Assembly: GCF_016811075.1 (NCBI RefSeq)
Contig: NZ_JAFBGL010000009.1
Coordinates: 124,001-188,000, forward strand
DNA length: 64,000 bases
Direction of reading: 5' to 3'
Origin: Oceaniferula flava
Lineage (GTDB): Bacteria > Verrucomicrobiota > Verrucomicrobiia > Verrucomicrobiales > Akkermansiaceae
Translations under genes and position numbers: made by a program
The notes under the pieces: model-generated
What the model was told of the DNA's origin: nothing
Seen by the model: the letters and a program-made list of their open reading frames with translations, nothing else
The model's database searches: none
Part shown: positions 21,339-26,388 of the stretch, piece after piece
Numbering within the stretch: position 1 is the first letter of the stretch
Layout: every line of letters begins with the position of its first letter

Positions 21339-21447
21339 GCGGCCGGTAGCACCGTGGCGAGCTCCGGCGTGAGTTCGGTAAATTTGTGTGGATTGGAGAA
21401 TTGTCACGATCCCTTTTTCACATAGTCTGGACGGCAATCCATTGTTT

Positions 21448-22992
21448 ATGAAAACCCATCCATTCTGCATCGCGCTGGTATCCTTGTTAGCCATCCAAGC
21501 CCCGGCTCCCGCCGCCACCGGAGATAAACTCAACGTGCTCATCCTCTATGCCGATGACATGGGCTACGGTGACTTGATTTCAAACAACCCCAACTCGAAG
21601 ATCCCCACGCCGAACCTCGACCGACTGGCCGCGGAGGGGCTTTCCTTTTCCGACGGTCACTCGTCGTCTGGCATCTGCACGCCATCGCGCTACGCCTTGC
21701 TGACCGGGCGTTACCACTGGCGCGATTTCCACGGCATTGCGCAGTCGTTTGGTCCCAGTGTATTTAAGAAAAACCAGCTGACCATTCCGAAGCTGCTGCA
21801 AAGCCATGGCTACAACACGGCGGCGATCGGCAAGTGGCATCTGGGCATGGGTTACAGTGCGATCCGGAACCAATCGGTGGAACTCTCTAAGGTGAAACCG
21901 AAAAAGGGACGGGCGAAAACCCACTACCCAGCGAATGCCTTTGATTGGTCGAAGCCGATTCCCGACGGTCCGCTATCGATAGGTTTCGACCACTACTTCG
22001 GCGATGACGTGATCAACTTTCCTCCTTACGCATGGATTGAAGATGACAAGCTGGTGAAGGCTCCCGACACTCAGATGGACCCCGCCAAATGGCCCAAGAT
22101 CAAGGAGGGAAATTGGGAGTGTCGCCCCGGCCCCATGGTCACGGGGTGGAATCCCTACGAGGTGCTGCCGACGCTCGGTAAAAAAGGGGCGGAATACATC
22201 ACGGCACAGGCCAAGGAGAATCAGCCCTTCTTTCTCTACTTCGCCTTTCCATCGCCGCACGCACCGATCATTCCCAACGATGAGTTTGACGGGAAATCTA
22301 AGGCCGGGCCATATGGTGACTTTGTTTACGAGACCGACCACATCGTTGGCAAGCTGCTCACCGCCCTTGAGGAATCGGGTCAAGCCGACAACACCCTGGT
22401 GATTTTCACCGCCGACAACGGCTCCGAGCACTATGCTTACCCCCGCGACGCGAAGTATGACCATTGGTCGTCAGCTCCTTTCCGTGGTGCCAAGCGTGAC
22501 CTCTACGAAGGTGGGCATCACGTGCCATTCATTGTCAAACTGCCGAGTGTCACCCAGCCGGGCAGCCGCACCGAGGCGCTGGCGTCTCAGGTGGATCTTT
22601 TTGCCACCATCGCGGAGGCCACCGGCATCAAGCTTCCGGCCGACCGCGGGGCTGAGGATTCCTTTTCCCTGATGCCGGTTTTGAAGGGCGGGGAAAGTTC
22701 GGGGAGAGATGCCATCGTGCACAATACCAGAGCTGGTGCCTACGCGCTGCGAAAAGGTGATTGGGTTCTGATCGATACCGGCAATGGCCATCACAACAGG
22801 GTGACGTCGCAGTGGTATAAGAAACACGGGGTGAAACCTGAGAAGGCTCCCGTCTATTTGTATAATTTGGAAGAGGACGTCATCCAGTCGGACAATCTCT
22901 ATCAAAAGAACCCTGAGAAACTCAAAGAACTCAAGGAGGAGCTGAAATTGCTGCGCGATTCCAAGCACACAGCACCGCGATTGAGTGACTAG
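21448..22992 (+). CDS. Secreted sulfatase (type I, formylglycine-dependent)
   Basis: A 514-residue protein with a signal peptide (to about A22-A23). The type I sulfatase motif C-T-P-S-R lies at residues 77-81, where Cys77 is converted to formylglycine, and is followed by the LLTGRYHWR motif. The metal-binding N-terminus is [15 protein letters not shown], and the C-terminal metal site is [11 protein letters not shown]. It resembles arylsulfatase A / N-acetylgalactosamine-6-sulfatase-like enzymes that desulfate polysaccharides such as carrageenans, ulvans or mucins. The substrate is not deducible. ATG 21448 is selected over 21388 for the signal peptide. No sulfatase-maturating radical-SAM enzyme is in the window. 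It is convergent with another sulfatase. Confidence 0.93.
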
Positions 22993-23050: not shown

Positions 23051-24625
23051 CTATTTCGCAGCCTTCTCTTTTTTCGCTTTGTTTCTCTTCTTTTTCGCCT
23101 TGGTCTCGATCGGTTCAATCCCGTCTTGGGGTTGGTTGGAGAAGCGATAGGGATCGTCGTGCTGGCGCATTTGAGCTAACAGAAGATCCTCCATTTCCTT
23201 AAGTTTGTCAGCGTGTTGAGGATCGGTGGCGAGGTTGGTTTGTGTCGCCTTGGGTTTCACTCCGGTGAGAGCCGTGACTTCGGGAGCTTGGTGCGCAGCA
23301 ATCAGTTCATGTGGGTTCTCGGCGAGGTTGAACAGCTGGGTGTGGCTGGATTTGCCTTTGGCATCTTCATACTTGATGAGTTTCCAGTCGCCCTGCTTCA
23401 CCGTGCGGATGCCAGGTTTGGCACCACCTGCGTAGACGCCGTAAAGGGTGTCACGACCCTCCACCTTGGCTTTCTCACCTTTCAAAACGGGAGCCAAGCT
23501 GACCCCTTCAGCCGTGGCGGGGCGGGGCACTCCGGTGAGATCGCAGAGGGTGGGGAGAATGTCTAACAAATACATGTTCTGCTCACTGCGGACACCGTAT
23601 TGAATACCGGGCCCTTTGACAATGAAGGGCACGCGCCAGGTGTGCTCGTAGAGGTTCTGTTTTCCTTGCAGCCCATGTCGACCGATCGCCATGCCGTGAT
23701 CGGAGGTGTAGATGATGTAGGTGTTATTCAGCTCACCCATGGTTTTGAGCTTGTCGAGCACGCGTCCCAGTTGGATGTCGATATTCTCGCTGCAGGCGAA
23801 CTCTCGGCCGAGCTCATTGCGGATGGTGCGTTCGTCGCGGTTTTTCCAGACTCCGGAGACCTTGGTCTCATCGCGAACGTTCAGGTGGCTGTTGTCGAAG
23901 GGATGTTTCGGCAGATAGTTGGCTGGGAGTTGGGGCTGTTTGGGGTCGGCCTTCGGCAGTGCATTTTCGTCGCGATGGTTGCTGGCTCCGTATTTGGCGA
24001 GCAACTCAGGTTTGCCATCGCGGATGTCGTGTGGGTGGGAGAATCCGAAGTAGATCATGAACGGGGCGCTTTTCTCATCGCGCGTGCCGAGGTAGTTCAG
24101 CACCTGTTCGGCGTGCCAGGCGCTGCCGGTTTCGTCGGTGCCGCCGCGTTTGGTGGCATCGTGGACGATGGTGAATTGCTCGTTGGCGGCGGCATAGCTG
24201 TTGCCCTTCTTGCAGGTGCGCATGGTGTCGTAGCCGGCTTTGTTAAAGACCGCAGCGAGGGTGGTTTTGGCCAGATTTGGCGGCACCAGTTTATCGTTGC
24301 CGGTGTGTGGGTTTTGCTTTTTCGACTTACCGGGGATGTGCCAGACAGTGCGGCCCGACATGATCATGTGGCGCGACGGCGTGCAGACCGCCCCGCTCCA
24401 CGCTCCCATGTGGTAGGCAGCGTCGAAGACAATGCCCTCAGCGGCCAGTTGGGAAATGCGCGGCGTCTCCAACTTCGAGTCAGGCTGATAGACGTTGAGG
24501 TCGAATGGCGATTGATCATCGACCACGACAAAGAGAACGTTCGGCCGCTTGTCGGCGGCATGACTGAGTGGCGCGGAAATGGCCAAGGCTGAGAGCAGCA
24601 GGCCGAAGTTGAATGGGGAATTCAT
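23051..24625 (-). CDS. Secreted sulfatase (type I), second subfamily
   Basis: A 524-residue exported protein (signal peptide about 1-24, LSHAADKRPN). It has RPNVLFVVVDDQSPFDLNVY at the N-terminal metal site (D36-D37) and C-T-P-S-R at 81-85, the formylglycine site. YTSDHGMAIGRHGLQGKQNLYE forms the C-terminal metal site, and the tail is Lys-rich (KAKKKRNKAKKEKAAK). The SDHG...GRHGLQGKQNLYEH pattern is that of iduronate-2-sulfatase/choline-sulfatase-like members, so it belongs to a different subfamily from the convergent neighbour. It probably acts on polysaccharide sulfate esters; the substrate is unknown. Confidence 0.92.
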   Translation of the reverse strand: MNSPFNFGLLLSALAISAPLSHAADKRPNVLFVVVDDQSPFDLNVYQPDSKLETPRISQLAAEGIVFDAAYHMGAWSGAVCTPSRHMIMSGRTVWHIPGKSKKQNPHTGNDKLVPPNLAKTTLAAVFNKAGYDTMRTCKKGNSYAAANEQFTIVHDATKRGGTDETGSAWHAEQVLNYLGTRDEKSAPFMIYFGFSHPHDIRDGKPELLAKYGASNHRDENALPKADPKQPQLPANYLPKHPFDNSHLNVRDETKVSGVWKNRDERTIRNELGREFACSENIDIQLGRVLDKLKTMGELNNTYIIYTSDHGMAIGRHGLQGKQNLYEHTWRVPFIVKGPGIQYGVRSEQNMYLLDILPTLCDLTGVPRPATAEGVSLAPVLKGEKAKVEGRDTLYGVYAGGAKPGIRTVKQGDWKLIKYEDAKGKSSHTQLFNLAENPHELIAAHQAPEVTALTGVKPKATQTNLATDPQHADKLKEMEDLLLAQMRQHDDPYRFSNQPQDGIEPIETKAKKKRNKAKKEKAAK

Positions 24626-24780: not shown

Positions 24781-26388
24781 ATGGATGTCGACTTTTTGAT
24801 TATCGGACAAGGACTGGCCGGCAGCACGCTGGCGATGTCTCTGCTGGCTCGTGGGCAGCGACTACTGGTGGTGGACCGGCAGGACGCTGGGTCATCGTCG
24901 CGGGTGGCGGCCGGATTGGTCACTCCGGTCACAGGAAAAGGTCTGAATCCAGCATGGCGACAGCATGAGTATCTTCCTGCGGCTGTGGACTTCTATCAAA
25001 AATTGGAAAAGAAGACTGGTGAGAAGTTTTATCACCCCATGGACGTGGTCCGGATCTTTGGCTCCGAAAAAGAACAAACGAAGTGGAGAGGCAAGGCTGA
25101 CGAACACCAACGCTGGGGCAGCGAGACCGATCTGAGCAAGTGCCAACTCACCGCTGAGCACGGAGGGGTGCGCATGCATGACGGTGCTTGGCTGGACACT
25201 CGAAAATTTCTCGATGTGGTTAGAAATCGGCTGATCACGGAGGACGCATGGCGTGAGGCTGAATTTTCAGAAAAGGATGTCCGTTTTTCAGAAGGAAGCA
25301 TCAGCTGGCAGGATGTGACTGCAAAGAAAATCATCCTCTGTCAAGGTGCCTACGGACTGGGGCAAGGGGGATGGTTTGGCAACGTGCCGCATCGGAGTGC
25401 CAAGGGGGAGATTCTGACGCTCAATGTCGACGGCCTCGACTCCGATAAACGCTACCATGCTAACGGCTGGTTAGCACCGCGAGGCGACGGCACTTGGAAA
25501 GCTGGAGCCACTTATGAATGGAATCGTCTCGACTCTGAACCCACTGCCGGGGGGCGCGAGGAGGTGATGGAGAAAATTTCCAGCTGGTGTCCTGCGGATC
25601 TGAAGGTAGTTGGTCACGAAGCGGGTGTTAGGCCAATCATCCGCAATAGCCGGCCAGTGATCGGGTTTCATGCCGAGCACAAGCAGGTGGGCTTTTTCAA
25701 TGGTCTTGGCTCCAAAGGCTCGCTGATGGCTCCAGCGGTGGCGACACATTTTGCTGAGGTATTAACTAGTGAATGTGAAATCGATCCAGAGTTGGTATTT
25801 CCTACCGCGAATCATTCTCAGCATTTGATAAGTGGGAGCTTAATCGCCTCAGCGCATGCAGCTGTTAGGGAGTGTGTGAGCGATGGCGATACCGTGATCG
25901 ATGCAACTGTAGGAAATGGGCACGATACCCTGTTTCTGGCTAAAACGGTGGGGGCTGGCGGTCAGGTGATCGGGTTTGATATTCAGCAGCAAGCGATTGA
26001 GTCCGCCCGCATTCGTCTAACTGAAGGCGGTGTCGGCGACGACGTTGTGCAGCTTCATGTTAGATCGCATGCAGAGATGGAGGACGTGGTGCAAGGCGAG
26101 GTCTCCTGTGTGATGTTTAATCTCGGTTACCTACCAGGCGCCGACAAATCGCTGATCACCAAGGAGGACAGCACACTCCGAGCATTGTCTCAGGCGGTGG
26201 CGTTGCTGAAAAGCGGGGGCTTGCTGAGCGTGATGTGCTACCCAGGCCACGCCGGAGGGGATACCGAGGCGGCGCAGGTGAAACGTTGGCTGTTAGGGCT
26301 ACCAGAGGAGCAATACGAGATGCACCTCTACCAGCGATCTGGCTATCGCAGCAGCACTCCATTTCTCCTTCTGGCACGAAAGAAATAA
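24781..26388 (+). CDS. Fusion of MnmC(o)-like FAD oxidase and MnmM (YtqB) tRNA methyltransferase
   Basis: A 535-residue two-domain protein. Residues 1 to about 340 are a DAO-type FAD oxidoreductase: a dinucleotide-binding G-Q-G-L-A-G-S at 9-15, VVDRQDAGSSSRVAAGLVTPVTGKG, and a C-terminal GVRPIIRNSRPVIGF with FFNGLGSKGSLMAP. Residues from about 355 to the end match the MnmM/YtqB family: ASAHAAVRE, IDATVGNGHDTLFLA as the SAM motif, FDIQQQAIESA, FNLGYLPGADKS, CYPGHAGG, and a C-terminal PFLLLARKK. In E. coli MnmC, an oxidase removes the carboxymethyl group of cmnm5U and an unrelated Rossmann methyltransferase adds the methyl. Here a MnmM-type methyltransferase is attached at the opposite end. The role in the wobble-uridine mnm5 pathway is inferred. 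The TTG-initiated frame from 24709 is longer; ATG 24781 is used. Confidence 0.82.
   Translation: MDVDFLIIGQGLAGSTLAMSLLARGQRLLVVDRQDAGSSSRVAAGLVTPVTGKGLNPAWRQHEYLPAAVDFYQKLEKKTGEKFYHPMDVVRIFGSEKEQTKWRGKADEHQRWGSETDLSKCQLTAEHGGVRMHDGAWLDTRKFLDVVRNRLITEDAWREAEFSEKDVRFSEGSISWQDVTAKKIILCQGAYGLGQGGWFGNVPHRSAKGEILTLNVDGLDSDKRYHANGWLAPRGDGTWKAGATYEWNRLDSEPTAGGREEVMEKISSWCPADLKVVGHEAGVRPIIRNSRPVIGFHAEHKQVGFFNGLGSKGSLMAPAVATHFAEVLTSECEIDPELVFPTANHSQHLISGSLIASAHAAVRECVSDGDTVIDATVGNGHDTLFLAKTVGAGGQVIGFDIQQQAIESARIRLTEGGVGDDVVQLHVRSHAEMEDVVQGEVSCVMFNLGYLPGADKSLITKEDSTLRALSQAVALLKSGGLLSVMCYPGHAGGDTEAAQVKRWLLGLPEEQYEMHLYQRSGYRSSTPFLLLARKK

Follow-up and report, generated by a model that had tools for sequence, protein, structure and literature searches.

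A single gene of Oceaniferula flava joins a FAD oxidase of the DAO fold to an MnmM (YtqB) methyltransferase, and we propose, with a probability of roughly 0.8, that its product is one bifunctional enzyme that would convert cmnm5(s2)U to nm5(s2)U and then to mnm5(s2)U, the oxidase being the MnmC(o)-like partner of MnmM. The gene is located in a 64,000-nucleotide stretch of contig NZ_JAFBGL010000009.1 (NCBI RefSeq assembly GCF_016811075.1, positions 124,001 to 188,000 of the forward strand), which was analysed as a whole and is called the window below. In the proposed scheme, MnmE–MnmG would use glycine to make cmnm5(s2)U34 tRNA; the N-terminal oxidase would take this tRNA and oxidise its N-carboxymethyl group, which would leave as glyoxylate and give nm5(s2)U34; and the C-terminal MnmM domain would then methylate the amine with SAM to yield mnm5(s2)U34. 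We infer both what the oxidase acts on and which step comes first; carboxymethyl removal is assigned to the oxidase from gene linkage, co-occurrence, the failure to find alternatives and the reactions known for its closest structural neighbours.

The features of the gene are listed in Table 1. A first-pass annotation, made from the sequence without database searches, had read the oxidase as coming first and an MnmM-type methyltransferase as following it, and profile matches to the two parts confirmed this order. The frame contains no internal stop. Its second part scored 196.9 bits against the MnmM equivalog, above the cut-off of 135, and PF06962 matched residues 396–531 (E 1.3e-41). An AlphaFold2 model of the fusion protein (mean pLDDT 94.5, pTM 0.83) was confident over both domains, and its lowest ten-residue block (341–350, pLDDT 67) fell at the domain junction. 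When the host genome was searched with the fusion gene (E 0.001), the sole match was the gene itself, without internal stops. Two sulfatase-like genes lie upstream on opposite strands, at 21388–22992 (+) and 23051–24625 (−) of the window; the latter matches PF00884, and the former was judged by its sequence alone.

Table 1. Positions in the window of the fused gene, its domains and selected residues.
Feature	Position	Strand	Basis
Fused oxidase–MnmM gene (protein P0001)	24781..26388	+	535-aa reading frame that starts with ATG at 24781 and stops at 26388
DAO-fold FAD oxidase domain, residues 4–326	24790..25758	+	Pfam DAO PF01266, E 1e-33
R284, in one column with R567 of E. coli MnmC and the 1ryi arginine	25630..25632	+	Alignment
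Flavin-loop motif GLGSKG, residues 308–313, form [GA]xG[SAT][KR]G	25702..25719	+	Common to MnmC(o)
Linker joining both domains, about residues 346–354	25816..25842	+	Junction inspected, no stop codon; separate genes here in L121, L122 and L127
MnmM (YtqB) methyltransferase domain, residues 355–534	25843..26382	+	NF053511; 3eey, TMt 0.95
D382 (B. subtilis MnmM D34)	25924..25926	+	39/39 MnmM rows
N447 (B. subtilis MnmM N101)	26119..26121	+	39/39 MnmM rows
Y487, H490 (B. subtilis MnmM Y141, H144)	26239..26250	+	Each 39/39 MnmM rows

Residue numbers of Bacillus subtilis MnmM were transferred by hand from an alignment with 4pon, which we take to be the structure of that protein. Mutants of D34, N101, Y104, K110, Y141 and H144 in B. 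subtilis MnmM were reported to be nearly inactive (PMC9976899), and all six have equivalents in the window protein (D382, N447, Y450, K456, Y487 and H490). D34 contacts U33, and the activity of D34A is very low; N101 is the proposed general base; Y141 and H144 recognise U34 (PMC9976899). The K110 column varies, with K in 29 of the 39 MnmM rows and H, R, E or A in the others. A further residue of this set, K11, which also contacts U33 (PMC9976899), probably corresponds to H359, a position reached by extending two residues past the aligned part, where the 39 rows have H (26), Q (7) or R (6). The known MnmM substrate is nm5s2U (PMC9976899), and from its family membership the window domain would methylate nm5(s2)U34.

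The oxidase part was less readily assigned. Its best NCBIfam match was ThiO (TIGR02352), at 105.8 bits against a cut-off of 250.8; the MnmC_Cterm model (TIGR03197) was outscored by it, at 62.8 bits against 174.2, and no cut-off was passed among the matches listed. A tree of 71 rows placed the oxidases linked to MnmM in one clade with those of the f5 and f20 genomes (54 rows, support 99/99). MnmC(o) formed a separate clade (100/98) of five rows, one from E. coli and four from f32 genomes, and seven above-cut-off ThiO rows fell outside the oxidase clade. A profile built from 18 clade members scored approximately 160–496 bits on members, 61–79 on ThiO and 46–66 on MnmC(o). Judged by the tree and these scores, the oxidase is a third, well-supported clade apart from MnmC(o) and ThiO. 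Membership of ThiO was rejected on the missed cut-off, the separate clade and a flavin loop unlike that of ThiO, and membership of MnmC(o) on the missed cut-off and the position in the tree.

The flavin loop at residues 308–313 leans the oxidase towards MnmC(o). The form given in Table 1, which was chosen after the alignment was seen, occurred in 47/54 clade rows from the phylum of the window, 75/79 rows of L121–L200 and 29/30 rows of L204–L233, as well as in all five MnmC(o) proteins, and in none of seven ThiO or five other DAO proteins. The stricter G-x-G-S-[KR]-G was found in 50/54 phylum rows and 4/5 MnmC(o), but in only 51/79 and 7/30 of the wider rows. The seven ThiO rows have G-[LH]-[YF]-R-[HN]-G in place of the GLGSKG of the window. 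The conserved list for E. coli MnmC, which also names G287 and R653 (PMC3648344), was compared at six residues (G271, G273, G518, R567, G578 and G619), and all six are matched, by G9, G11, G242, R284, G295 and G313. Five of these (G9, G11, G242, R284 and G313) show the same conservation in ThiO and are weak as MnmC(o) markers, and the G295/G578 glycine is missing in 6/7 ThiO yet present in 4/5 other DAO proteins. An arginine in the R284 column was present in 53/54 phylum clade rows, 77/79 rows of L121–L200 and 30/30 rows of L204–L233, and also in 7/7 ThiO, hence it does not discriminate. The 1ryi arginine in this column is taken as R302 of B. subtilis glycine oxidase; given its role there, R284 is no more than compatible with a glycine-like carboxylate.

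Among the structural neighbours of the oxidase, glycine oxidase (Z 36.2) was nearer than MnmC (33.3), with CmiS2 (35.1) and iminodiacetate oxidase (34.0) between them. The substrate of CmiS2 is an N-carboxymethyl amine. Glycine or N-carboxymethyl amines are thus the substrates of these neighbours, which was counted for the proposed reaction. For E. coli MnmC itself, structural similarity to glycine oxidase has been reported (PMC3648344). The first-pass annotation had called the oxidase MnmC(o)-like and had named a grouping with a glycine/amine oxidase outside MnmC-like clades as an objection to its own reading. The score below the MnmC_Cterm cut-off and the position outside the MnmC(o) clade do count against that reading and weaken the case, as do the higher ThiO score and the closer structural match to glycine oxidase; nevertheless, gene linkage, co-occurrence and the shared flavin loop still favour an MnmC(o)-like role.

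The host genome (3.95 Mb in 51 contigs, 98.48% complete) contains MnmE (375.3 bits), MnmG (800.2 bits over the frame) and MnmA (384.5 bits), all above their cut-offs, as the first reading would need. A search for MnmL with TIGR01212, a model that also matches in E. coli and may take in relatives of MnmL, gave no match in this genome at 1e-10, and PF05430 (Methyltransf_30), the MnmC(m) domain, gave none at 1e-5. The fusion protein itself had no PF05430 match and so carries no Methyltransf_30 N-terminal to the oxidase, as bifunctional MnmC (NF002480) does. The host therefore has the upstream pathway, whereas these searches found in it neither of the alternatives known for the final steps.

The two genes co-occur in the phylum of the window. 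Among 240 genomes, MnmM was above cut-off in 39 and the clade oxidase was found in 53, including all 39 MnmM genomes (Fisher p 2e-33, with kinship ignored); MnmM without the clade oxidase was found in none of the 240. The two genes were fused in two of the 39 (the window and G223, locus L010), in tandem in ten, and apart or with no adjacency seen in 27. Within genus g2, 12 genomes had both genes, seven had neither and one had the oxidase only. Four of the 39 (G039, G128, G172 and G228) also have a TIGR01212 match that exceeds the cut-off, and there MnmL could perform the step before MnmM.

The remaining 14 of the 53 oxidase genomes lacked MnmM. Six f20 genomes of this set have a stand-alone MnmC(m), which fits the proposed role of the oxidase, and G146 is cut off by the end of a contig. 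In G193 and six f5 genomes the clade oxidase is accompanied by neither MnmM nor an ordinary MnmC(m), and these genomes count against a reading in which oxidase and MnmM form one pathway. In three of these seven (G085, G088 and G160), Methyltransf_30 matched only within a long frame of approximately 690–725 residues; the one that was annotated, that of G088, is fused to Tgt. Among the 240 genomes, matches to MnmM and to MnmC(m) coincide only in G102, and there too the Methyltransf_30 domain is joined to Tgt. In seven neighbouring frames at four loci of solitary f5 or f20 oxidases, no methyltransferase was found (five frames had no Pfam match, one was an EF-hand and one an amine oxidase). Genomes G091, G169 and G181 (loci L072, L049 and L043) have the clade oxidase with neither an MnmM nor an MnmC(m) match.

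An oxidase that acts on the wobble uridine in another way, for example on a different C5 side chain, with MnmM methylating the product, would suit a clade distinct from MnmC(o) and the three genomes just named, and sequence by itself cannot give the substrate. We consider this unlikely, because nm5s2U is the known substrate of MnmM, the closest structural neighbours use glycine or N-carboxymethyl amines as substrates, and both MnmE and MnmG are present in the host.

Linkage of the two genes extends beyond this phylum. We scanned GTDB contigs and examined the best 80 of 571 relatives; since a locus that holds both halves ranks higher, the following counts are not rates. Sixteen loci were single-frame fusions, 63 were pairs of separate genes, and one, at a contig edge, showed MnmM only. 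In all 63 pairs, the genes were on one strand with the oxidase first. The MnmM model started no more than 100 nt from the oxidase stop in 56 of them, and before that stop in 27 of these 56; in two of the 63 pairs the spacing is 737 and 2723 nt. Nine fusions belong to Planctomycetota and seven to Opitutaceae, Opitutales or Puniceicoccaceae. The nearest named relatives of the fusion gene among these 80 loci are two Akkermansiaceae assemblies and Persicirhabdus sediminis, which are also close to it in a quick tree and agree with a place in Verrucomicrobiota. A search of PVC genomes had been suggested at the outset; the fusion does recur, but the linkage is not confined to PVC, as tandem pairs occur in Methylococcales, Methylobacter, Methylomonas, Methylovulum, Nitrosomonas, Hyphomicrobiales, Hyphomicrobium, Mariprofundaceae and Kapabacteria. 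With 16 fusions and 63 same-strand pairs among the best 80 other loci, chance is not a reasonable explanation. The oxidase–MnmM fusion is real, and the initial view of it as such holds.

In a survey that took in 50 of the 80 best loci, MnmC(m) was found in none of the 50 genomes holding fused or linked loci, and the same search matched in 7 of 14 control genomes. Six of the 50 had TIGR01212 above cut-off, and three more had it below. A flavin oxidase and MnmM are hence tied together, as one protein or as an operon, in groups where MnmC(m) was found in 0/50 genomes and MnmL mostly was not found (6/50), which bears on the gap before MnmM.

The oxidase might instead act on a free amino acid, as a glycine oxidase/ThiO-like or D-amino acid-type enzyme of thiamin synthesis or amine breakdown that was joined to MnmM incidentally. 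ThiO as the best NCBIfam match and glycine oxidases as the top structural neighbours point in that direction. We nevertheless hold this to be quite unlikely, since the ThiO cut-off was missed by a protein whose clade stands apart from the ThiO rows and lacks their flavin-loop form, the linkage to MnmM recurs across phyla, and MnmM never appeared without the clade oxidase in the 240 phylum genomes. An assembly or sequencing artefact that joined two adjacent genes would agree with the 51-contig assembly and with the closest relatives (L121, L122 and L127) being two separate adjacent genes, but it is very improbable and was rejected, as the frame is open across the junction and other loci (16 of the best 80, and likewise G223) are fused too; even a tandem pair would support the same function.

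As regards its origin, the fusion probably arose more than once from an operon. In the quick tree, the window protein nests among the tandem relatives L121, L122 and L127 (SH-aLRT 96–98), and at least six switches between fused and tandem states are needed, although this tree has 34 open forks and long branches and serves as a guide only, and G223 and L138 are near-identical. The nesting and the number of switches are the basis for suggesting repeated origin.

The oxidase clade is also found outside these linked loci. The phylum to which G273, a Kapaibacterium assembly, belongs had matches to the clade or near relatives in 151/296 genomes at 1e-20, mostly alone. MnmM was beside the oxidase in three of the top 30 loci (L204–L233), and a mostly solitary oxidase counts against the pathway reading. 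MnmC(m) as its neighbour in this phylum was considered and rejected, with no match in 20 loci to a home-made model whose controls came from outside Bacteroidota; neighbourhoods covered approximately 6 kb on each side, except for one of the 20 with 3.6 kb on one side. This model does detect MnmC(m)-type domains outside its building set (L081, L082 and L086–L094). Returning to the oxidase as the MnmC(o)-like partner of MnmM, we think it reasonably probable, though less so than the role proposed for the fusion protein, that the whole clade is a general, as yet unnamed MnmC(o)-like wobble-uridine enzyme. Its partner would be MnmM, fused to it or in one operon, in Verrucomicrobiota, Planctomycetota and several groups of proteobacteria; in f20-type genomes, and perhaps in Bacteroidota, it would work with an orphan MnmC(m). 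The oxidase that Cho et al. noted as missing would then be accounted for in many of these lineages. The fusion, together with adjacency in several bacterial groups, points to a hitherto unrecognised enzyme for the oxidase step of a common tRNA wobble-base modification, and a single gene makes the question of that step directly testable.

Cho et al. 2023 (PMC9976899) state that the MnmC(o)-like enzyme of MnmM organisms is unknown. They expected an oxidase–methyltransferase fusion or operon and found none among 198 genes that three Gram-positive species have in common and E. coli lacks (PMC9976899). A 2025 review lists MnmL and MnmM (PMC12548931). We found no description of an oxidase–MnmM fusion in the literature searched, a search that did not extend to the 2024 MnmL paper. 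That paper, by Jaroch et al. (J. Bacteriol.), reportedly assigns MnmL and mentions fusion proteins, which may include oxidase–MnmM fusions.

Other combinations of these domains were observed. The radical-SAM MnmL/YtqA (TIGR01212) is fused to MnmC(m) (Methyltransf_30) in two annotated genes, L095:1623–3455 (+) and L096:1789–3507 (−), and matches to both models share one frame of at least 565 residues in 45/240 phylum genomes, in other classes (two of them annotated). The queuosine transglycosylase Tgt is fused to an MnmC(m)-like Methyltransf_30 at L088:3216–5303 (−) and L092:1655–3700 (+), where the latter domain scored 54.9 and 43.7 Pfam bits, respectively, and was below the MnmC2 equivalog cut-off. 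Frames similar to this fusion, by length only, occur in G045, G075, G085, G098, G125, G140 and G160. Such a protein would possibly methylate at or near position 34. The idea of a third architecture, put forward in the first-pass annotation, understates the mixing seen in the 45 genomes with TIGR01212 and MnmC(m) in one frame.

Among known systems, the glycine oxidases of the ThiO type (1ng3 and 3if9) have the same fold as the window oxidase (Z about 36), and they differ in their separate clade, their other flavin-loop motif and a family cut-off that the window oxidase did not reach. IdaA (iminodiacetate oxidase, 6pxs), which by its name oxidises an N-carboxymethyl amine, and CmiS2 (6j38) are also among the closest folds, whereas they have small-molecule substrates and no methyltransferase. 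MnmL (YtqA) is likewise thought to act before MnmM, but is an unrelated radical SAM enzyme with no match in the host. Bacillus uses MnmL plus MnmM. The MnmM of Bacillus, Staphylococcus and plants belongs to the same methyltransferase family as the window domain and has the same catalytic residues, but is described as a stand-alone protein (PMC9976899). E. coli MnmC, like the window protein, combines a FAD oxidase and a SAM methyltransferase in one protein for the last two steps, with a common flavin-loop motif and several conserved positions; its order is MnmC(m)–MnmC(o), whereas in the window the oxidase comes first, the methyltransferase is MnmM rather than Methyltransf_30, and the oxidase lies outside the MnmC(o) clade. 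Taken with E. coli MnmC, the MnmL and MnmM of Bacillus and the TIGR01212–MnmC(m) frames, the oxidase–MnmM pair suggests repeated swapping of the oxidases and methyltransferases of the wobble-uridine pathway, both halves of which appear to have been exchanged repeatedly in evolution.
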